Source of the DNA: a virus
Reading direction: 5' to 3' (one strand)
Length of the DNA stretch: 51,770 bases
Virus record (IMG/VR): IMGVR_UViG_3300020020_000041
Coordinates: 1 to 51,770 of that record
Shown here one piece after another: positions 3,720 to 51,730 of the stretch; within the stretch, counting starts at the first letter, position 1; each line of letters begins with the position of its first letter. The notes beneath the pieces were generated by a model, which saw only the letters and a program-made list of their open reading frames with translations, did no database searches and was not told the origin of the DNA. The position numbers and the translations under genes are program-made.

Positions 3720-4007
3720 TTAGACACCTTTCGGGAGTTCGATCGGATTTCCGTCCGAGTCGATAACGATCCGCGGATCGTTCGTTCGGTAGAAATTCCC
3801 CGCCGGCGGTCGCTCAACCGATCCGAGCGGAACCGGCGCGTCTGGCGGTTTCGTTGCCGATCGGGACTCGATCGCCGCGGACAACGCCGCGAACGGATCG
3901 CGCGCGGCGGCGGTTTCTATCGCCGTCGCGATTCTGGCGAGTTCTGTCGCGATCTGGTCGAGTACCCGGATCAATTCCGGCGAGTTAGATTGCGTCACCG
4001 CTAGCAC
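3720..4007 (-). CDS. Hypothetical protein downstream of portal
   Basis: 95 residues starting at GTG (4007), overlapping the portal stop by about 20 bases. The first half is helical (IATELARIATAIETAAARD), the second Pro-rich. The sequence around its start resembles the repeated motif seen at 10780 (CTAGCACC[CT]GTTTCCGG), so start-site regulation or shared ancestry is possible. No function is recognised. Confidence 0.65.
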   Translation of the reverse strand: MLAVTQSNSPELIRVLDQIATELARIATAIETAAARDPFAALSAAIESRSATKPPDAPVPLGSVERPPAGNFYRTNDPRIVIDSDGNPIELPKGV

Positions 4008-5463
4008 CCGTTTCCGGCCTGTCCGGACCCGATCCGACCATCAGCGCCGTCATTTCCTGCGCGCGTTTCTTTCGTTCGAGCATCATCGTCGCGATTTCTT
4101 TATCGTTGAGTAGTCCGGATTTTTTCAACAGAACCGCATCGTCGAGTTGTTGCAATTGAACGAGCGCGCCGACTTTCGCTTTGTCTGATTCCGCCTGCGC
4201 CGTCGGATCCAGACGTTCCGGCGCCGCGAATAGCGGTTTGATCATTTTGTTTTCGTCGAGCGTATCGATTCCGAACGCGTTCTGTATTTCGGTCGATCGG
4301 TGCGCCAGAGTTGCCCACGACGGACCGGTTGTTTTCGTTAGTTGAATCGTTTTGTCGACTAGCGGCTGTTCAGCGCGCATTAGCGCCAGACCAGACGGCC
4401 AGTCGCCGCCGGTAATTACGAATTCCGGCGTTCTGGTCGAACTCGCCGCCGCCTGTTTTTTGGCGATTAGAACGTCGATCAGTTTCGACATATCGCCGGC
4501 GTTGAGCGCGCCGACACGCGCGTCCGAGTTCGCGGACGTGATGATATAGCCCGGTCCGATATAGAGTGTTTCTTCATCGCCGTTCGCATCGATTTCCGGT
4601 TGATAACCGGTCACGAAATAGACTTGAAATCCGGTCGTTCTGGCGGCGGAAATAATGTCCCAGTGGATATCGTTGATCTGGTCCTGAATACCGATAATTC
4701 CGCCGTCGAGATCGGACATTCCGTAGGATCTGGCGCCAGACGCTTTTTGATTCGAGAAATGGATCATCGGAACGCCGAGCGGAGATCCGTTCCGTTTCAA
4801 CCACGGTTCGACCGGTAGTTTGTCGATTCCCTCGGCGGATCCGTCATACGGTTCCCAGACCGGACCGCGGAGAACGTATCGCTCAATCCGATCGTGGAAA
4901 TAGATGTTCCGGAGTCGCAGCGTTCGTTTGGATCTGGCGCCGACGTTCGGATCGCGGATCTCCCATTCTTTGACGCCGAACTCGGGTTCCTCATCTTCAT
5001 CGGTATAACAGACCCACGAACCGGTAACGCCGTCCCACCACGGTTCTAGGTGCGCGGTAACGCGACCGGCGGACGGTTCGCCGGCGGAATCGTGTTCGGT
5101 TACTTTCCAGCCGAGAATTGTCGCAACGTTGCCGTCCCGCGGCGCCGCGTAATGGATATCGTACTGTTTCCGATCCATCCGGTTTTTGATCCAGAGATCC
5201 TCATCGAGAAACGTTTGTACGTCCGGATCGTCGACGGCGAAACCGGTTAGTTCCGCGCGCGACGCGACGGTCGAAACGATTTTGTCGCAGATATTGTCAG
5301 CGAATCGTTCCGGGATAATCGGATAAATAATCCGCCGTTGTTCGGTTGTCAGAGTGCAGAATTGATCGCCGCGCGCGTATCGGCGGAACGTGTCCGTCTG
5401 GTTCGGATCGCGTGACGTCGCCGTTCGGAGTCGCGCGATCCGATCGTGAACAGATTCGGCCAT
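3985..5463 (-). CDS. Portal protein
   Basis: This 492-residue protein lies 2 bases after the large terminase gene, the standard place for a portal. It resembles SPP1 gp6/actinophage portals: an N-terminal charged segment, NICDKIVSTVASRAELTGF near residue 60, and GGIIGIQDQINDIHWDII in the middle, typical of the long helical clip/stem region. The portal forms the dodecameric ring at the capsid vertex through which DNA enters and leaves. The ATG at 5463 is preceded by a GGGGGTAGTA ribosome site that overlaps the terminase stop. Length matches the family. Confidence 0.92.
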   Translation of the reverse strand: MAESVHDRIARLRTATSRDPNQTDTFRRYARGDQFCTLTTEQRRIIYPIIPERFADNICDKIVSTVASRAELTGFAVDDPDVQTFLDEDLWIKNRMDRKQYDIHYAAPRDGNVATILGWKVTEHDSAGEPSAGRVTAHLEPWWDGVTGSWVCYTDEDEEPEFGVKEWEIRDPNVGARSKRTLRLRNIYFHDRIERYVLRGPVWEPYDGSAEGIDKLPVEPWLKRNGSPLGVPMIHFSNQKASGARSYGMSDLDGGIIGIQDQINDIHWDIISAARTTGFQVYFVTGYQPEIDANGDEETLYIGPGYIITSANSDARVGALNAGDMSKLIDVLIAKKQAAASSTRTPEFVITGGDWPSGLALMRAEQPLVDKTIQLTKTTGPSWATLAHRSTEIQNAFGIDTLDENKMIKPLFAAPERLDPTAQAESDKAKVGALVQLQQLDDAVLLKKSGLLNDKEIATMMLERKKRAQEMTALMVGSGPDRPETGASGDAI

Positions 5464-5465
5464 TA

Positions 5466-7091
5466 CTACCCCCGACGGCGGCGTTCTCGCCGTTGTGCAG
5501 TTCGATCGTTTGGATCATCCCACGGTCCGCGCGGTCCCGGATCGTTTTTCCGCGATACGGTCCGACCGGTTCCGGTGCCGATATCATACCCGTGTATTAG
5601 CGCCTGCGACGTCGCGTCGACTTGATCGTCATTCGCGCCGGCGGGGAAAACGCAGAGTTCGTCGACGTATTTCTCAATCCACGGCGCGATCGATGGGTGG
5701 GGGAGATAAACGTTGCCGGCGTCGAAATAAATCGTTACCGCGTCCGCGCGGGTGTATTTGTCGCCGTTTGGCTCAACCTCGATCATGCCCGGTACGCGCG
5801 ATTTGAGCGTGTTTACGATCGCCGGTCCGTTCGCTTTGTTCTCGATCAATAGCGGACGCGCGTCACGGTATTTGCCGGCGAACGATTCGACCGCGGTAAC
5901 CTGCGTCAGGAATGACGCGCGATCGCGGTATTGATCGAGTAAATAGGTTTCGGATCCGACGCGTCCCCAGACTTGCCCGACACAATACGAACCGGTTTCG
6001 GTTTCCTTTACGGACGCGTCCCACGATTGCCATTTCCGTTCGAGTCGCGGATGCATTGGTTTCTGGTCGCAAACGAATTCGCGCCCCGGTCCGAGTCGAA
6101 CGCGGACCGGCATCGGCGCCGGACGGTCCGCCGGATACCAGTAACGCATCGACGTCCGCTTGAATAGGTTTCCCTCGGACGCGACCGGTCGCGATTGAAA
6201 TTGCGCGTTCCACATGCGACTCGACATCGTTGCTTTGCGGCGTTCGAGTTCGGCGATCGTCCAGCGTTCCGGCCAGAGTGGTTCCCCCCATTCGCGTCCG
6301 AGCGGATCTGGTTTCCCCGGTTCTGGTTCCGCGATCGCTTGAAACTCGACGACGGTCCATTGATCGGAATTCGGATCGTCCGCCGCGGCGCGGAGTAATC
6401 GACCGATTAGATCGTCCTCATTCCAGCGCGTCGCGATAACGATCACGGCGCCGCCCGGTTGCAGACGCGGATACGCGGTGTCGGTATACCAGTCCCAGAC
6501 AGATTCCCGAACCGTTTCCGAATCCGCCTCGGCGATATTTTTTACGTAATCGTCGATTAGCAGGATATTGGCGCCCATTCCGGTAACGGCGCCGGTTACG
6601 CCGGCGGCGTTGTATTCGCCGCCGAAATTGGTTTCCCATTGCTCAACCGCGGCGCGTTGTCCGGAGATCGTTACGTTCGGAAACGGAAACCGCGGATCCG
6701 CAACATGGTTTCTGGCGCGGCGCGAGATCCGGTTCGCGAGTTTGGCGACGTACGAACAGCAGATAATCGCGTGCTGCGGGTGCCGTCCGAGATACCACGA
6801 TGGGAATTTGATCGACGCGAGTTCGGTTTTGCCGTGGCGCGGCGGAAACGTAACGATCAGCCGCTTGATCGCGCCAGACTCGACGGATTCGAGCGCGGCG
6901 GCGAGTGCGTAATGAACGCGCGACGGTTCGTACGTCGGCGTCATTCGTTTGGCGTAATCGATCAACGATATTTCGCCAGACTCGGCGAACGGCGCGTCGA
7001 TAAACGCGTCAATCCGATCGGCGAACCGATCCAGTAGAAATTTCTCTAACCCCTGTGGCGATTCGGGCAAGCGCGCCGCGATCGTTGACAT
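5466..7091 (-). CDS. terL: Terminase large subunit (packaging ATPase/nuclease)
   Basis: 541 residues from ATG 7091. Walker A is FPPRHGKTE (Lys near 88), Walker B is ILLIDDY (Asp near 180) and the coupling motif is VIVIATRWNEDD near 216. The C-terminal RNase H-like nuclease part shows SWDAS, LLIENKANG and NDDQVDA acidic positions. It pumps and cuts the phage DNA at the portal. A TTG 6 bases upstream is an alternative start. The start overlaps the preceding small-subunit gene by about 80 bases, which is long; an internal start would remove part of the N-terminus but not the ATPase. Confidence 0.95.
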   Translation of the reverse strand: MSTIAARLPESPQGLEKFLLDRFADRIDAFIDAPFAESGEISLIDYAKRMTPTYEPSRVHYALAAALESVESGAIKRLIVTFPPRHGKTELASIKFPSWYLGRHPQHAIICCSYVAKLANRISRRARNHVADPRFPFPNVTISGQRAAVEQWETNFGGEYNAAGVTGAVTGMGANILLIDDYVKNIAEADSETVRESVWDWYTDTAYPRLQPGGAVIVIATRWNEDDLIGRLLRAAADDPNSDQWTVVEFQAIAEPEPGKPDPLGREWGEPLWPERWTIAELERRKATMSSRMWNAQFQSRPVASEGNLFKRTSMRYWYPADRPAPMPVRVRLGPGREFVCDQKPMHPRLERKWQSWDASVKETETGSYCVGQVWGRVGSETYLLDQYRDRASFLTQVTAVESFAGKYRDARPLLIENKANGPAIVNTLKSRVPGMIEVEPNGDKYTRADAVTIYFDAGNVYLPHPSIAPWIEKYVDELCVFPAGANDDQVDATSQALIHGYDIGTGTGRTVSRKNDPGPRGPWDDPNDRTAQRRERRRRG

Positions 7092-7686
7092 TCTCAATTA
7101 CCAACTGCCATAACCGGTCGATTATGAGCATCCCTTGTTCGCTAGTGATCATCATTTGAGCGTCGACCAGCCGGCGCCGTTCCGTATCGACGATCCGGCG
7201 CCGGCGTTCGATTAGCGAAACGGCGCGATCCTGCGCCGATAGCGCGGAGTTCTCCGCGGCGACGATCGCGCGCATCGCGTCCGTTGCGTCGAGTAGTCCG
7301 GCGGCGTCCTTTTGCTGGGCGGCGAGATCTCGATCGGCGAATAGTTTTTTGAGCGTCCGCCAGTTCTCCGCGGATCCGCCAGACGCCGCCGCGGACAACG
7401 CGTCCGCGACCATCGAATCGATCAATCCGATTTCGTCTGACAGATCCAGAATCGACGCCGAGATCCGCGACCGATCGTAAACGTCGACCAGATTCGCCGG
7501 AATTACGGACGAATAGCGACCGTGTTTGTACGTCGGATGACTCGGACCGGCGGGATAGGATTTGCCGCCGTGGAGTCGACAGCGTCCGTTTGGCATTGCC
7601 CACGCTAGGCATTTGGCGCCGGTCCGTCTGGTTTTCGCGCCGCAACGTTTCGGCGACGGTCGATCGGTTGTTATCCGGTTTGTCAT
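7009..7686 (-). CDS. terS: Probable terminase small subunit (HGGK-type)
   Basis: A 225-residue protein just upstream of terL. The N-terminal part holds a Cys/His cluster, CGAKTRRTGAKCLAW then GRCRLHGGKS, the signature of the HGGK family often found at the small-terminase position in actinophages and other phages. The rest is helical and charged (RAVSLIERRRRIVDTERRR), fitting an oligomerising DNA-recognition subunit. The ATG at 7686 is preferred; an upstream start at 7773 would overlap the CmoA-like gene by about 50 bases. No strong ribosome site is visible, so coupling to the upstream gene is likely. Confidence 0.75.
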   Translation of the reverse strand: MTNRITTDRPSPKRCGAKTRRTGAKCLAWAMPNGRCRLHGGKSYPAGPSHPTYKHGRYSSVIPANLVDVYDRSRISASILDLSDEIGLIDSMVADALSAAASGGSAENWRTLKKLFADRDLAAQQKDAAGLLDATDAMRAIVAAENSALSAQDRAVSLIERRRRIVDTERRRLVDAQMMITSEQGMLIIDRLWQLVIENVNDRGALARIATGVREISTGSVRRSD

Positions 7687-7724: not shown

Positions 7725-8579
7725 TTACTTGATCGCGATCCAGCCGGCGAAATTGACCCATCGCCAGAAACAATCGACCTCACGGAAACCGGCGTCGCGG
7801 AGTAGTTGTTCGTTCATTCTGGCGGAAATCGGGACTTGAACGCCCTCTAACGCGAACCGTTTCCGTTCGATTTCGTCCGTTGTATATCCGTTGTCGCGTT
7901 TGAGTCGGTGATACCGATCGACGAAAACCGTATCGAGCGCGGCGCCGTCTGGCAGGACTTTTTCGACCAGAACGAACGCGCCGCCCGGATTGAGCGAATC
8001 CCAGACGCGGCGGACGATCGGAATCCGGTAATTGATCGGAACGAACATCAGCGTTAGAACGGACAGAACGATCGACGCGTCGACGAACGGAAACCGATCG
8101 GTCCGGAGATCGGTTTTCTCGATCCGGACCAGATCGCCGGGATAGGTTGCGAACCGGAGTTTCGCGGCGGCGATCATCGGATCCGAGATTTCGAGTCCGA
8201 CGTAACGGTTGCCGGCGCCGAACCGGTTCAGAAACGGAACGAACGCCTCGCCGCGGGACGTTCCGAGATCGGCGATCGTCGAGTCTGGCGTCACGAACGG
8301 CGCCGCCAGATCGAACACGAGCGCGCGCATCTGGCGGTAATCGGGGATCGATCGATCGAGCATATCGTCGAATACGTCCGTAACCGATTGATCGAACTCC
8401 CACCGTTCGGTTGCCGGCGTATGTCCGAGCGAACTCGCCGGCGCGATCGGTTGCGCGTCTGGTTTGACGTCGCCGCGGAGTTGTTCGGCGCCAGACTCGG
8501 CGAGAACGATCCGATCCGAATCGGCGTATTCGTTCGGCGCGGTCGGTTTCCGGAAATAGTGGGAGAAATCTCTAACCAT
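7725..8579 (-). CDS. CmoA-like carboxy-SAM synthase
   Basis: A 284-residue class I SAM-fold protein resembling bacterial CmoA, which converts SAM and prephenate to carboxy-SAM (Cx-SAM). N-terminal FDQSVTDVFDDMLDRSIPDY (63-82) matches the E. coli CmoA segment [20 protein letters not shown]. Motif I is IADLGTSRGE (102-111). LNPGGAFVLVEK (196-207), RLKRDNGY and EIERKRFALEGV also align. Arg241 falls at E. coli Arg199, the residue that grips the Cx-SAM carboxylate. The C-terminal FWRWVNFAGWIAIK matches the CmoA end. The start overlaps the DNA methyltransferase stop by 8 bases. No CmoB partner is present, so a use in DNA rather than tRNA modification is inferred. An ordinary methyltransferase of the same fold is the alternative. 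Confidence 0.85.
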   Translation of the reverse strand: MVRDFSHYFRKPTAPNEYADSDRIVLAESGAEQLRGDVKPDAQPIAPASSLGHTPATERWEFDQSVTDVFDDMLDRSIPDYRQMRALVFDLAAPFVTPDSTIADLGTSRGEAFVPFLNRFGAGNRYVGLEISDPMIAAAKLRFATYPGDLVRIEKTDLRTDRFPFVDASIVLSVLTLMFVPINYRIPIVRRVWDSLNPGGAFVLVEKVLPDGAALDTVFVDRYHRLKRDNGYTTDEIERKRFALEGVQVPISARMNEQLLRDAGFREVDCFWRWVNFAGWIAIK

Positions 8580-10200
8580 CGATCTGGTCCTTTCGGTTGA
8601 GCGAATCGAGAATCGCGGCGATCTCGACGGCGACGGCGCGCATCATCAGCGGCGGAACGGCGCGACCCAGACGTTCCCACTGTTGCGCGTAGGTTCCGGT
8701 CAGTTCGAAATCGTCCGGAAACGAACAGATCCGGCGTAATTCCGGAATCGAGAATTTCCGCCGTTCGAACGGGTGCATGATTGTCGCGATCGACGGATCG
8801 CCGCCGGACGCGGTTAGCGTTCCGGCGGCGTCGTCCGGATCGGTTCGGACCAGAGAAAAAAATTTGCCAGATTGCGCGCCGGGTTTGAGTTTCCCCCATT
8901 CGTCGCCGATCGCGTAACCGGTAACGTCGAGTCCGGATTCGACCGCGGTCCGCCGGCGTTCGGCGATCGTTTTCCGTTTCGGCGGATCTGGCGCCGGCGG
9001 CGTTCCGGTTTCGATCCGCCAGCCCTGTTGTCGACCGCCGCCAGATCCGAGAATCGTCGCCATTGGTTCGTTGAGCGCGTCGACGTCTGGTAACGCGAAA
9101 TCGCCTTTCGTCCGGTTCGTAATCCGGACCGGCGGTTCTGGCGCCGGCGGCGTTCCGGTTTCGACAGAAAACGCGAATCCGGAGTTATCGCCAGACGCGC
9201 CGGCGGTAACGGTCGGTAACGGTTGATCGAGCGGGATTTCCTTTCCTTGCCGATCTGGTCGCGCGCCGGTTCCGTAACGAACGCGGACCGATCGCGACGC
9301 TTGAACGGCGCCCATTGGAATATCAGTTCCGTAATCGGCGTGACGATCGAATCCGGTCGCGCCCTCGATCTGGTCGCCGGATCCTAACCACGGAATCGCG
9401 TCGCGGACCGAATAGCGGTATTTGAGCGGATCCGGAAACCGCGGTTCGGCGTCGAGATCGTTCCGGACGCCGATAAATATGATCCGTTGCCGCTTTTGCG
9501 GAACGCCCAACCATTGCGCGTCGAGTAACCGCGCGCGGACGTTGTATCCGGCGTCGATCATCGCGCGCAGGATAATCTTGAAATACCCTTTCGCGGTCCC
9601 TTTGACCAGACCGGAAACGTTCTCGGCGACGAACGTTTTCGGTTGCAGATCGCGGACCAGACGGACGAATTCGAAAAACAGATCGTCCGAGCGTTGCGCG
9701 GTATCCGAGTATCGCGAAACGGTCCCCCACTTTTTTTCGCGTTTGCCGGCGGTTGAGAATGACGCGCAGGGCGGAGAACCTTCCAGACAGTCGATTTCGC
9801 CGATCGGAATTCCGGTCGCGTTGACGATATCGAGCGCGGAGATCTGGCGGATATCGGCGTCCGAGATCAGCGTTCCCGGTTCGGCGTTTGCCGCGTACGT
9901 ATCGCGCGCCGCCGGAACGAATTCGTTCGCCCACGCGACAGAGAAACCGGCGAGTCGAAATCCGAGACAGGATCCGCCGGCGCCGGAAAACGTCGAAACG
10001 AGTTTGTATCCGTTTTTGGGAATCGCGCGGATCTCGGCCATTGACGGAACGGCGTAGGGCGGTTTTGTCAGATCTGGCGGCGGCGGCGGCGGGATATCGA
10101 GCGGAACGGCGAGTTCGCTATGTGTCCAGAGATTACCGTGAGTCTGTACGGTCGGCGACGGATCGTCGACCTGAACGCGCGGTACGATCTGGCGCGTCAT
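8572..10200 (-). CDS. C5-cytosine DNA methyltransferase with motif X Asn replaced by Arg (predicted carboxymethyltransferase)
   Basis: 542 residues from an ATG at 10200 that overlaps the ParB-like stop (ATGA). All Dcm-family motifs are present: motif I STFSGAGGSCLG (69-80), catalytic SPPCASFS with Cys145, AENV (192-195), QKRQR (235-239), a long target-recognition region and motif X near 512. Motif X normally reads G-N-[SA]-V; here it reads LGRAVPP, with Arg513 (codon CGC at 8664-8662) in place of the Asn that contacts the cofactor. Lys/Arg at this position is reported to make engineered M.MpeI use Cx-SAM. The next gene is CmoA-like. I infer transfer of a carboxymethyl group to cytosine C5. 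The target site is unknown. Repeats ETGTPPAPEPP/ETGTPPAPDPP lie in the recognition region. Confidence 0.92.
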   Translation of the reverse strand: MTRQIVPRVQVDDPSPTVQTHGNLWTHSELAVPLDIPPPPPPDLTKPPYAVPSMAEIRAIPKNGYKLVSTFSGAGGSCLGFRLAGFSVAWANEFVPAARDTYAANAEPGTLISDADIRQISALDIVNATGIPIGEIDCLEGSPPCASFSTAGKREKKWGTVSRYSDTAQRSDDLFFEFVRLVRDLQPKTFVAENVSGLVKGTAKGYFKIILRAMIDAGYNVRARLLDAQWLGVPQKRQRIIFIGVRNDLDAEPRFPDPLKYRYSVRDAIPWLGSGDQIEGATGFDRHADYGTDIPMGAVQASRSVRVRYGTGARPDRQGKEIPLDQPLPTVTAGASGDNSGFAFSVETGTPPAPEPPVRITNRTKGDFALPDVDALNEPMATILGSGGGRQQGWRIETGTPPAPDPPKRKTIAERRRTAVESGLDVTGYAIGDEWGKLKPGAQSGKFFSLVRTDPDDAAGTLTASGGDPSIATIMHPFERRKFSIPELRRICSFPDDFELTGTYAQQWERLGRAVPPLMMRAVAVEIAAILDSLNRKDQIDG

Positions 10201-10751
10201 CCGGACGTTTTTCCGGACCATTCGTACCCGCATTTCGGGCACTCGAAATCGGTCGCGATATTCTCGCCGTATTCCGGAAACTCGGACGGCGGCGTTCCGC
10301 CAGATCCGCCGGCGCCGTTCTCCGCGTCGCGTTCGGCGATCGCGGTGAGTTCCCATTCGGCGAACGCGTCCGCCGGTAGTAATCCGCGGTCGCGATCGGC
10401 GGCGATTTGTTCGGCGTCCCACGCCAGATCGATTTCGGCGGCGCGGTTGTCCGTATAGGCCAGACCGCGACCGATCGGCGTATCGATCTCGACGTCCGTT
10501 CGTTGAACGACAACGAGTTTTGTTCCGTCCGATTGAATCGTTTCGATATCGAGTCCGAGTTCGCGCGCCTGTTCGAGCGTTTTGTTGCCGGCGATAACCG
10601 TTCCGGCGCGATCGACCAGAATCGAGCGACCGGCGCCGTAATCCGAGATCGAGTCATAAATCATCGTTCGACCGCGGTCCGTTCCGACGTTTGCGTTATT
10701 CGCGTCGAGAATCAGGTCCGCGGCTGATCGGATCGTTTTCCGGCGTGCCAA
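10197..10751 (-). CDS. ParB-like (Srx-fold) domain protein with C-terminal zinc ribbon
   Basis: 184 residues from TTG 10751, with a well-placed AAAGGA ribosome site. The N-terminal half has the ParB/sulfiredoxin fold pattern ILVDRAGTVIAGNKTLEQA (44-62), then VVVQRTDVEI. A CPKCG zinc knuckle sits at 171-175. The partition ParB motif GxxRxxA is altered (GNKTLEQA) and no HTH is visible, so this is not a chromosome-type ParB and should not bind parS. Such domains often precede DNA methyltransferases in phages. The stop overlaps the methyltransferase start by 4 bases, so it belongs to the modification operon, perhaps guiding or regulating the modification. Confidence 0.8.
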   Translation of the reverse strand: MARRKTIRSAADLILDANNANVGTDRGRTMIYDSISDYGAGRSILVDRAGTVIAGNKTLEQARELGLDIETIQSDGTKLVVVQRTDVEIDTPIGRGLAYTDNRAAEIDLAWDAEQIAADRDRGLLPADAFAEWELTAIAERDAENGAGGSGGTPPSEFPEYGENIATDFECPKCGYEWSGKTSG

Positions 10752-10883: not shown

Positions 10884-11339
10884 TTAGTCCGGTTCGGCGT
10901 TGAGTTCGGCGCGGAACCGTTCGAACTCGGCGAACGATTGCGTTACGCGACCGCCGAGCGGTTCGAGTCTGGCGCGGATCAATTCCGCGGACGCCGCCTG
11001 ATACGGAACGAGATCGTCATCGTTTTTGATTCCGGACGATTCGGACGTCGCCCACATACGGATAACGGCCAGACAGATATCGGCGGCGACGCCGAGTAGC
11101 GTCGCCTGTTTCTCGCCGAGCGAACCCGATTCCGGCGGTCGTTCGGTTGTCATCTGGCGCAACGTATCCAGAATCCCGGCGACGGCGCCGAGTTCGGTAA
11201 TAAACGGCGCCGCTAACTCCGCGGAGTCGCCGCGCCAGACAATACCGATTCCGCCGTCCTCGAACGGATCCGGCGCCGGCGGATTGTCCCGGTTGATATA
11301 AACGCGACCGTTGCCGTTGAGTTTGCGTGCTTTTGCCAT
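10884..11339 (-). CDS. Hypothetical protein
   Basis: 151 residues with a GGAGATCC ribosome site before ATG 11339. The N-terminus is basic (MAKARKLNGNGRVYINRD), the rest helical and acidic. No Cys cluster, signal or membrane segment is seen. It follows the 38-residue membrane protein gene and precedes the modification operon with a 132-base gap. No function is recognised. Confidence 0.7.
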   Translation of the reverse strand: MAKARKLNGNGRVYINRDNPPAPDPFEDGGIGIVWRGDSAELAAPFITELGAVAGILDTLRQMTTERPPESGSLGEKQATLLGVAADICLAVIRMWATSESSGIKNDDDLVPYQAASAELIRARLEPLGGRVTQSFAEFERFRAELNAEPD

Positions 11340-11357
11340 TTTTGGATCTCCGATCCG

Positions 11358-11474
11358 TTACGAAAATAAATCGACGATCGCCGCGACGATAAATCCGGCG
11401 AGATAGAGAACAACCAGACCGGCGAGAAACCAGATCAGGAACCGTTTGAGCGGTATTCCGCGATAGGCTGACAT
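11358..11474 (-). CDS. 38-residue single-span membrane protein
   Basis: The ATG at 11474 overlaps the upstream TAA (TAATG). The product starts MSAYRGIPLKRFLIWF, followed by a hydrophobic stretch to about residue 34 that forms one membrane span with a basic N-terminus. It is too short for a known family. Tight coupling to the upstream gene makes a chance frame unlikely. Confidence 0.6.
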   Translation of the reverse strand: MSAYRGIPLKRFLIWFLAGLVVLYLAGFIVAAIVDLFS

Positions 11475-12127
11475 TAGTGTTTCGGACCGGAGAACGCGTC
11501 CGGATTGTTGAGTAAATCGGTAGTCCGGCGACGCGATTCGAATTCGGTCCGATCGACAACCTCGGCGCCGCGCGCGACCAGTTCGGCGATAACCAGATCG
11601 GCGAGTTCGAGAACGTACGCGCGGTGCGCGGCGATTTCGTCCGGTTCGGTCGCGTATTCGTCCTGCCAGATTTCGAGCGCCGTATTGAGCGCCTGTTCGC
11701 CGACAGAGAAAACGAGCGACATTGCCGGTTTGCCGATCTGGTCCGCAACCTGCGCCAGCATTTGGAAAATAACGGACGATTCGATTATCGAGTCGAGAAC
11801 GACGTCGATCATTGCCGCCGGCGGATAGGATCCGGCGAGTCCGACGCCGTCGATCTCCGCGTCTGGTTCTGGCGCCGGATCTGGCGCCAGAATGTCATTG
11901 TCCAGATCGCCGAGCGCGGCGTTCGTCGCGAGTGCGAGTTTGTCGATCGACCGTTCGATCCGCGCCAGATCGCGCCGGAGTTCGTCCGCGCGGTCCGGAT
12001 CGAGATTCGCTTTTGCGTCCTCGATCGCGCGTTTGAGCGCAACGCCGGCGAGTTCCGCGGCGTGCGAGAACGCGACGAAATCGGACGGCGACAGAACGAC
12101 CGCGATTTCGGGAATTCGGATTGTCAT
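11474..12127 (-). CDS. Hypothetical helical protein
   Basis: 217 residues from ATG 12127 (MTIRIPEIAVVLSPSDFVAF), with a GGTGG ribosome site 8 bases upstream; ATG 12142 is an alternative. Long helices with heptad-like charge follow (RADELRRDLARIERSIDKL). The middle is Pro/Asp-rich and the C-terminal half helical. The start overlaps the stop of the Tat-signal protein gene, so the two are co-translated. No function is recognised. Confidence 0.7.
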   Translation of the reverse strand: MTIRIPEIAVVLSPSDFVAFSHAAELAGVALKRAIEDAKANLDPDRADELRRDLARIERSIDKLALATNAALGDLDNDILAPDPAPEPDAEIDGVGLAGSYPPAAMIDVVLDSIIESSVIFQMLAQVADQIGKPAMSLVFSVGEQALNTALEIWQDEYATEPDEIAAHRAYVLELADLVIAELVARGAEVVDRTEFESRRRTTDLLNNPDAFSGPKH

Positions 12128-12128
12128 C

Positions 12129-12743
12129 TTAGAACCACCCACCGCTATCGTCGATCCGTTCGATTTCGTCCTCAGTCATCGTATAACCGGCGAGATCTGA
12201 TTCGTCCGGAACGATATCGCCGAGATCCGAGCGGTCGATCGCGTCGAATTTCATGTGCCGATCGACGATCCGGAAAAACGGTCGCTCAACGCCAGACAGT
12301 CCGATTCCGCACCAGACGTGAACGCAGCGCGACTTTTGCGCCAGAACCATATAACCGGTTAGGAGAACGCCGTCCGTATCGATCTCGAACGACCAGCCGA
12401 CGCGATCGGCGCCGTTATCGAGAATCGCGTCGAAATCGCCGCCGGGTTCGAAATCGAGATCGACCAGATTATCGACGTACATATCGTCTGATTCGAGCGA
12501 ATCGATAAACGTATCGATTCCGGTTTTGGCGATTCCGCGATACGCGTCCGCGGCGTCTGACGTCGAGTCGCTAACGGTTGCCATTGTCAGAACGAGAACC
12601 GGACCGCCGGCGAAAATATCGTCCTTTTCGAACTGGCGCGATATTCCGTAATCGGACGCCGCCGCCGGTTTGAGATTGAGTCCGCCGGCGATTCCCGCGG
12701 CGGCGAGTCCGCCGAGTAATTGTCGGCGCGATAGAGATTTCAT
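12129..12743 (-). CDS. Exported protein with a twin-arginine (Tat) signal peptide
   Basis: 204 residues beginning MKSLSRRQLLGGLAAAGIAGG: a twin-arginine motif at residues 6-7, a hydrophobic core, and a likely signal peptidase site after PAAA (about 29). The mature part is acidic and soluble, with two Cys in CVHVWCG. Tat substrates cross the host membrane folded, so this product probably acts outside the host membrane or cell wall during infection. A strong AAAGGATC ribosome site precedes it. No enzymatic family was recognised. Tat signals are rare in lytic phages; superinfection exclusion is one possibility. Confidence 0.75.
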   Translation of the reverse strand: MKSLSRRQLLGGLAAAGIAGGLNLKPAAASDYGISRQFEKDDIFAGGPVLVLTMATVSDSTSDAADAYRGIAKTGIDTFIDSLESDDMYVDNLVDLDFEPGGDFDAILDNGADRVGWSFEIDTDGVLLTGYMVLAQKSRCVHVWCGIGLSGVERPFFRIVDRHMKFDAIDRSDLGDIVPDESDLAGYTMTEDEIERIDDSGGWF

Positions 12744-47271: not shown

Positions 47272-47988
47272 TTATCCGGCGCGGCGGTTAGGCCAGACCT
47301 TTTTCGGTCGACCATCGCGGGTAAATCCGGGTTCGACCGGTTCCGATCGTTTGGTTTTGGTTCCGACGTTTGCGTTGCCGCCGCCGTCGTTCTCCGCGCC
47401 GTCTGATCCGTTGCCGCCGTCTGTCCGGGGTGCGACCTTGACGCTTGGAATCAGTTTTTTCAGACGCTTTGCGTCCTCGATCATCGATTCTTCATCGTCG
47501 CCGTTGATTCGATCGGCGAGTTCGATCGGAATACCAACCTTTTCAGCCGCGGTCCGGCGCGCCTCGGATCGATCGTATTCGCGGAGTTTTTCGTTCGCCG
47601 CTAACAGATCCTTTTCGAGTTGAGCGTTCAATTTGGCGAGATCGCCGTCCGAGCGGAGTTTTTCACGTTCCGACTCGGCGACCAGTTCGGCGCGAATACT
47701 TTCGCGTTCGGATCGCCGGACCTGACCTTTCGCCTTTTGAATTAGCGCGTCGACCTCGGCCTGCGTTGTCGGAATTTTCCATTCCGGATCTGGTTCGGCG
47801 CCGTCGTTCTCGCCGGAATCCGGTTCGCCGTCGGCGCCGTTGCCGGCGTCGCCAGAATTGCCAGATTTACCGCCAGAGTTCGCCGATCCGGTATTACTCG
47901 ATCCGCCGCCGGCGCCAGAACCCGAATCCTGTTGCTGGTATTGCGTAGCGAAATAGTTCCGGAGAGCATCGTTCCAGATCGCAGACAT
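47272..47988 (-). CDS. Scaffolding protein
   Basis: 238 residues, first gene of the structural operon. A low-complexity Ser/Gly/Asn/Glu N-terminus leads to a long coiled coil (LAKLNAQLEKDLLAANEKLR). The C-terminus is basic (DGRPKKVWPNRRAG), probably the capsid-binding hook. Arrangement, composition and position match phage scaffolds, which guide capsid assembly and then leave. Confidence 0.85.
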   Translation of the reverse strand: MSAIWNDALRNYFATQYQQQDSGSGAGGGSSNTGSANSGGKSGNSGDAGNGADGEPDSGENDGAEPDPEWKIPTTQAEVDALIQKAKGQVRRSERESIRAELVAESEREKLRSDGDLAKLNAQLEKDLLAANEKLREYDRSEARRTAAEKVGIPIELADRINGDDEESMIEDAKRLKKLIPSVKVAPRTDGGNGSDGAENDGGGNANVGTKTKRSEPVEPGFTRDGRPKKVWPNRRAG

Positions 47989-51493: not shown

Positions 51494-51730
51494 TCAGATC
51501 GCGCCAGACGGATAACCGTTCGGATCGATCGGTTTCGCGCCGGGATAGAGCGGAACGAACGTTTTTCCGCCGTCGCCCGGGTACGGTTCGGCGTGGGAGA
51601 TCTCCGCGCGGAGTATCGGATCCGGAATTCCGTCCGGAAACGCCTCGCAGGTTAGCGGCGCCGGACCAGACGGCGACCGGACCGGTATGTTGAACCGTTT
51701 GCAGAACGAGCAGGACGGCAGGCGGATCGC
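51494..51730 (-). CDS. Small Cys-containing protein, 3' part plus repeated 5' part
   Basis: This is the same 83-residue gene as at 1-141, seen from the right end. The TGA is at 51494-51496 and the open frame extends through the 126-base terminal repeat to 51730, where the inverted snap-back sequence breaks it before the ATG. The C-terminal half is rich in Pro and Gly and ends PNGYPSGAI. Nothing here suggests an enzyme. It is followed at once by the promoter serving the 51030-51404 gene. Confidence 0.7.
   Translation of the reverse strand, partial: AIRLPSCSFCKRFNIPVRSPSGPAPLTCEAFPDGIPDPILRAEISHAEPYPGDGGKTFVPLYPGAKPIDPNGYPSGAI
51605..51730. repeat. Terminal direct repeat, right copy
   Basis: Identical to bases 1-126. 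Removing one copy gives a circle of about 51,604 bp in which the 83-residue gene is intact. Confidence 0.95.

Follow-up and report, generated by a model that had tools for sequence, protein, structure and literature searches.

The virus record IMGVR_UViG_3300020020_000041 (51,770 bases; the whole stretch was analyzed and is henceforth termed the window) carries two overlapping genes whose products, a CmoX-like DNA cytosine C5-carboxymethyltransferase and a CmoA-like carboxy-S-adenosylmethionine (Cx-SAM) synthase, very probably act as a pair that carboxymethylates phage cytosines. This reading is well supported, with the activity read across from a homologue. Carboxymethylation of phage cytosine was first shown in December 2025 for Synechococcus phage S-B43, in which CmoA makes Cx-SAM and CmoX makes 5-carboxymethylcytosine (PMC12783734). 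The two reactions and the arginine contact are shown in that homologue; for the present locus the case consists of homology, conserved residues, gene coupling, and co-occurrence among relatives. A first-pass annotation of the window had proposed such a natural cofactor-plus-enzyme pair. The proposal agrees with the chemistry of the S-B43 relative, but that chemistry is already published, and the locus is a further example of it rather than a new system. The accompanying survey, with IMG/VR among its sources, counted 5,615 candidate CmoX, 4,257 CmoA, 2,251 ligases, and 1,660 ParBc proteins (PMC12783734), and the present contig may already figure among the CmoX candidates.

Results

The cmoX-like gene (8572-10200, minus strand) encodes a predicted carboxymethyltransferase of 542 residues. 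Its open frame spans 10422-8572(-); the likely start is the ATG at 10200, which together with the stop codon of the ParB-like gene before it makes up the overlap ATGA. The protein has the C5-methyltransferase fold (Pfam DNA_methylase, E 9e-54) and the SPPC catalytic motif. As derived from the frame, the codons of Cys145 and Ala146 (motif IV, SPPCA) lie at 9763-9768 and that of Arg513 (motif X, LGRAVPP; RLGRAVPP in context) at 8662-8664, both on the minus strand. The complete enzyme with Cys145 and Arg513 described in the first-pass annotation is borne out in the 542-residue numbering. In a phmmer search of the PDB, SpCmoX (8YF3) was the top match (E 5e-62; next 5e-22), and Arg513 aligned with its motif X arginine, by alignment Arg350, at the position of M.HhaI Asn304. 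In 8YF3, Arg350 contacts the carboxylate (PMC12783734). An AlphaFold2 model of the window enzyme (mean predicted local distance difference test score, pLDDT, 75.8; predicted template modeling score 0.70; pLDDT below 50 at residues 1-33, 276-304, 332-339, and 349-420) also had 8YF3 as its best Foldseek match. VIA-align gave Z 38.1 for 8YF3 at a root-mean-square deviation (rmsd) of 2.4 over 311 residues, ahead of HaeIII (Z 32.7, next best), M.HhaI (31.7), and M.MpeI (8c58; 25.0). Arg513 was placed in motif X by means of phmmer, MAFFT, and the structure aligner. The target-recognition region is unlike that of SpCmoX and poorly modeled. The GC dinucleotide stands at 0.98 of expectation in the window, i.e., it is not depleted, and an attempt to predict the recognition site from GC depletion did not succeed.

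The cmoA-like gene (7725-8579, minus strand) encodes a predicted Cx-SAM synthase of 284 residues that matches PHROG 4752 (E 8e-70) and shows full-domain homology to 1IM8 (E 2e-36) and 4GEK (E 5e-29). It overlaps cmoX by 8 bases (common sequence ATGGTTAG), as stated earlier for this DNA, and AAAGGA lies a short way 5' of its ATG. Given that both frames are intact, that start-stop overlaps occur on each side of cmoX, that AAAGGA precedes cmoA, and that the catalytic residues are kept, a decayed or unexpressed pair is hardly credible. Arg241 aligns with Arg199 of E. coli CmoA, a number we take to be native after setting an offset of 14. This equivalence had been put forward as a mark of CmoA; the alignment agrees with it and the residue is kept, but it is not diagnostic, because the position holds Glu in 60 of 118 aligned CmoA relatives (duplicates kept), the proven S-B43 enzyme included by alignment. 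The others have Arg (49), Ala (3), Lys (3), Ser (1), or a gap (2). By sequence, Arg241 is thus consistent with CmoA function.

The relatives tie the motif X residue to cmoA. Our main relative set stems from one scan of viral contigs with the window methyltransferase alone, of which the best 80 of 150 loci were used. By alignment, motif X holds Arg in 71 (Arg-type) and Asn in 9 (Asn-type), and cmoA was present in the fetched DNA of 69 of the 71 Arg-type loci versus none of the 9 Asn-type loci (Fisher p 2e-10, relatedness ignored), in keeping with the co-occurrence with basic motif X residues that the first reading had suggested looking for. The two exceptions are cut-off contigs whose near-twins carry cmoA on the lost side: L011 begins 44 bases before the methyltransferase match and its near-twin L010 has cmoA upstream of cmoX; L029 stops 184 bases past the match and its near-twin L028 has cmoA downstream. 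The window cmoA query found no match in the whole records of the nine Asn-type loci (longest 69 kb), and the CmoA profile PHROG 4752 found none in the whole records of these nine and the two exceptions, with three of three Arg-type controls matched. Contigs from metagenome-assembled genomes (MAGs) added four Asn-type methyltransferases without cmoA in Acidobacteria, where three contigs bear the title Acidobacteriia and one Sulfopaludibacter, as well as four Arg-type methyltransferases with cmoA in Verrucomicrobia and Gemmataceae. Further methyltransferase scans seeded with the L073, PaBG, and Mcat8 proteins gave 2, 8, and 3 loci. A larger set had cmoA with 111/113 Arg-type and 0/15 Asn-type enzymes, plus one Met-type without it and one truncated sequence; it includes 23 loci found via cmoA itself and some contigs twice, and our conclusions rest on the 80. 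A relative on a Halobacteriovorax MAG contig (L123:9920-11005) belongs to neither type: its motif X residue is Met, Ser follows the catalytic cysteine, and cmoA was not found nearby.

A second position separates the two types. The residue after the catalytic cysteine is Ala in 90, Ser in 8, and Lys in 1 of 99 Arg-type rows (window included and near-copies kept), versus Gln in 9/9 Asn-type rows; L001, which is the window itself, and L114, a fragment, were dropped as rows. Positions 165, 166, and 171 also separate the types, with Ser-Asp in the Arg-type versus Glu and His/Asn at 165-166. In M.HhaI, whose nucleophile is Cys81 (PMC12783734), the corresponding residue is Gln82. To let M.HhaI accept cofactors with longer side chains, its conserved residues Q82 (motif IV) and N304 (motif X) were shortened; methylation was considerably lower with Q82A, and transalkylation was substantially better with the double change Q82A/N304A (PMC10666283). 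By alignment, the natural enzymes have altered the same two sites that chemists engineered in M.HhaI, with Arg at motif X where the engineered enzyme has Ala. The SpCmoX variant R350N accepted neither S-adenosylmethionine (SAM) nor Cx-SAM (PMC12783734), as would be expected if more than one site had to change. The main text of that paper does not mention Gln, Q82, or Ser-99.

These data bear on whether the methyltransferase instead makes ordinary 5-methylcytosine from SAM, with CmoA serving tRNA modification or another enzyme. The C5-methyltransferase fold and catalytic motifs would suit such an activity, as would the existence of phages with cmoA but no C5-methyltransferase. Yet the window enzyme has the motif X Arg and has lost the motif IV Gln, wild-type SpCmoX with the same Arg took only Cx-SAM (PMC12783734), and the Asn-type relatives lack cmoA. 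Moreover, CmoB (PF08003, E up to 0.01) was not found in the window, as had been noted before. We regard ordinary methylation as very improbable and carboxymethylation as the preferred reading.

In the S-B43 study, modified DNA resisted HhaI, and CmoY ligated glycine (PMC12783734). In the window, tblastn with the S-B43, PaBG, and TurkishDelight ligases found no homologue, a profile of 45 ligases matched none of the six-frame pieces of at least 40 residues, PF00733 (Asn_synthase) was not found (control genomes matched 14/14), and a Pfam scan of 60 frames returned no ligase family. Since no CmoY ligase was detected in an apparently closed genome, modification may end with free 5-carboxymethylcytosine. 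It is possible, though we think it doubtful, that the carboxymethyl group serves just as a handle, which a ligase of unrecognized fold in this phage or a host enzyme turns into an amide. S-B43 virion DNA was reported to contain only the glycine amide and no free 5-carboxymethylcytosine (PMC12783734), and a ligase is present in 28 of the 69 cmoA-bearing Arg-type loci of the main set and in L007, the nearest neighbor of the window methyltransferase on a quick tree (79 rows below 85% identity out of 130, trait columns left out; L133 and L044 dropped). The gene layout speaks against the amide: cmoX and cmoA abut or overlap in 46/59 ligase-less loci, leaving no gene in the usual ligase slot, versus a gap of 0.7-1.5 kb in 35/51 ligase-bearing relatives (L133, L044, and L114 dropped from these counts). 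PF00733 was likewise absent from the whole records of 16 ligase-less viral contigs, many of which may be fragments and two of which (L134, L135) are 100% identical to Moraxella phage Mcat8 in the methyltransferase, and from Mcat8 itself; it was present in four of four ligase-bearing controls. These 16 contigs and Mcat8 came from 21 long coupled loci, of which L090 (on one contig with L021), the genome contigs L115 and L121, and the window were omitted. Of the 13 gapped ligase-less loci, 8 were inspected by eye, and no common enzyme lay between cmoX and cmoA as another tailoring gene. Across the tree, ligase presence switches 22 times, which is no improvement on shuffled labels. Beside cmoX, L091 has a uracil-DNA-glycosylase superfamily gene (L091:9202-9669; Pfam PF03167, E 5e-10); genes similar to it by eye occur at L016:11352-11927 and L012:12860-13402, the L012 frame falling in a blastp cluster of nine loci.

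Compared with the S-B43 CmoA-CmoX(-CmoY) system, the window shares SPPC, Arg at the M.HhaI Asn304 position, an adjacent CmoA, and a small residue after the catalytic cysteine (Ser99 in S-B43, Ala146 here). It differs in its gene order (ParB-like gene, cmoX, cmoA), in the lack of a detected CmoY, and in a long, poorly modeled insert in the target-recognition region of CmoX. Baikalvirus PaBG and Streptomyces phage TurkishDelight also have the ParB-like gene, cmoX, and cmoA together, but their loci carry an asparagine-synthase-type ligase, of which none was found in the window. Moraxella phage Mcat8 likewise has a ParB-like gene, cmoX, and cmoA followed by one small gene and the terminase and, across its whole 40.7 kb record, no Asn_synthase ligase; unlike the window, it has a shorter CmoX and a CmoA with Glu at the Arg199 position. 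In Erwinia phage vB_EamM_Y3 (L137, 2986-5115), a CmoX-like methyltransferase (LGRICVP) has an intein-like insert at the catalytic cysteine (PF14890, E 3e-7, below cut-off), with cmoA and an asparagine synthase about 17 kb off. L091:7542-9182 encodes a CmoX-like protein with, by eye, a second motif IX-X copy (LGRSVPP) ahead of motif I, and a PxPT-like stretch stands just ahead of motif I in 32/130 aligned relatives.

At the locus, a ParB-like gene (10197-10751; PHROG 620, E 1.5e-11), whose product has a CPKC motif close to its C-terminus, is followed by cmoX and cmoA, all on the minus strand. The earlier view of a two-gene unit holds for the coupling of cmoX and cmoA but overlooked this first gene; the operon likely starts there, one gene before cmoX. 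The ParB-like gene accompanies 67/71 Arg-type and 9/9 Asn-type methyltransferases; because it is found with both, it goes with the methyltransferase and not with carboxymethylation. Located 3' of cmoA are a gene without family match, the large terminase, the portal protein, and a head-morphogenesis-like protein. A direct terminal repeat (1-126) is identical to 51605-51730, and the last 41 bases of the record, after the repeat copy, are an inverted copy of 45-85 that resembles an assembly tail. The head genes flanking the junction, scaffold-like on one side (47272-47988) and portal and terminase on the other (3985-7097), share a strand. With these same-strand head genes and the exact repeat, the genome appears closed at about 51.6 kb. 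A terminase-based search for close relatives of the phage found none. Dinucleotide bias is strong across the window (1-51770), with CG at 1.93 and AG/CT at 0.45 of expectation.

Outside the window, cmoA also occurs in a second, widespread phage module. PF00145 is absent from the whole records of four cmoA-seeded loci, L094, L106, L110, and L113 (L106 and L113 being short). L094 and L110 encode a ParB-domain fusion of 527-530 residues (PHROG 5475, a family of unknown function; E values 5e-102 and 8e-93), followed by a small gene (PHROG 32036, unknown) and cmoA (L094:545-3299; L110:7870-10726). Two fusion-seeded scans gave 34 loci and 80 loci (best 80 of 165), two of which were the seed contigs again (relatives L148-L261). 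Near the fusion, cmoA was present in 27/34 and 79/80 loci (106/114 fetched) and a C5-methyltransferase homologue in 0/34 and 2/80 (2/114). Seven of the eight fusion loci without cmoA have at most 718 bases past the fusion gene; L186 has 3 kb. The order fusion, small gene, cmoA was found in 106/116 modules and fusion, cmoA, small gene in 2/116. In 18 of 18 whole module records, PF00145 was absent (S-B43 control matched) and TIGR00740 matched below its cut-off, like S-B43 and the window. These records include Pseudomonas phage SM1 (L262), Aeromonas phage HJ05 (L263), and Gordonia phage Evaa (L264), in which the fusion is followed by a CmoA homologue, directly so in SM1.

When the fusion was modeled (mean pLDDT 80), residues 10-103 matched ParB (Z 11.7 and rmsd 1.4-1.6 over some 90 residues) and residues ~237-486 matched class I methyltransferases, best METTL6 (Z 13.6, rmsd 3.0, 191 residues, 16% identity), with the next families at Z ~12. 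The modeled fold thus looks methyltransferase-like, and it does not tell the substrate. Our literature search returned nothing for PHROG 5475 and only PMC12783734 for CmoA with ParB and phage; the Discussion of that paper reports a lack of CmoA-linked candidates for adenine N6 or cytosine N4. The linkage is shown and the activity is only proposed: the PHROG 5475 fusion is a candidate second user of Cx-SAM, possibly as a carboxymethyltransferase acting at some other DNA or RNA atom. Alternatively, the fusion methylates using SAM and cmoA serves something else. Other cmoA neighborhoods were also seen. In L106 (6387-9439), cmoA lies between a weak radical-SAM-like gene and a methyltransferase-like gene, followed by a threonine-dehydratase-like PHROG; the 9.4 kb record has no C5-methyltransferase, and the locus looks like another modification cluster. 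Alcaligenes phage Afa-NA1 (L006) has a CmoA homologue at 7950-8702; PF00145 and PF08003 were not found in its complete 78 kb record, which has two D12-class adenine methyltransferases (L006:598-1392 and 11175-12494).

Discussion

In the mechanism we envisage, CmoA would convert SAM and prephenate into Cx-SAM. CmoX would form the usual Cys145-C6 adduct on a cytosine within a short DNA motif and transfer the carboxymethyl group to C5, with Arg513 gripping the carboxylate of Cx-SAM. Ala146 in place of Gln would likely give the carboxymethyl group room and disfavor ordinary methylation. The product would be 5-carboxymethylcytosine in phage DNA, probably left as the free acid with CmoY undetected, and the modified base may protect phage DNA from host nucleases, whether of restriction or CRISPR systems.

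A number of observations count against this reading or temper it. On NCBIfam TIGR00740, the window CmoA (E 4e-48) scores 164.2 bits against a cut-off of 193.3; since the proven S-B43 enzyme, at 115.6 bits, also falls below, this threshold is not decisive where phage enzymes are concerned. By these scores, the window CmoA, with Arg rather than the Glu of S-B43 at the Arg199 position, is nearer the bacterial CmoA model than the S-B43 enzyme. The weight of the co-occurrence is limited by relatedness among the loci: on the best tree the Arg/Asn label switches four times, supported branches force only one change, and independent pairs number one supported and four when unsupported branches are admitted, all in the same direction and too few for significance. 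Four of 28 loci seeded by cmoA have no C5-methyltransferase, so that the presence of cmoA is not in itself proof of CmoX activity. Staphylococcus phage vB-SscS-F1 (L139, 4980-7498), with a CmoA homologue, an asparagine-synthase-like ligase, and a C5-methyltransferase in a row, is an exception to the arginine rule: its methyltransferase keeps PCQ and by eye seems to have Gly at motif X. Use of Cx-SAM may not depend on losing the Gln, because engineered M.MpeI N374K, a laboratory change at the motif X position altered in the window enzyme, gained Cx-SAM use by that change alone (PMC12783734). Finally, the unannotated genes of the window could include a ligase with a different fold.

The window extends known chemistry to a compact phage genome in which no amide ligase was detected, and the paired changes at motifs IV and X offer a sequence rule, based on two residues, by which carboxymethyltransferases and methyltransferases of this C5-methyltransferase family can be told apart. 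More tentatively, and with somewhat less than even confidence, we suggest that phages use Cx-SAM via at least two unrelated enzymes: CmoX, of which the window would be a ligase-less member making free, negatively charged 5-carboxymethylcytosine, and the PHROG 5475 fusion, which would represent a second kind of cmoA-linked phage enzyme, accessible in cultured phages.

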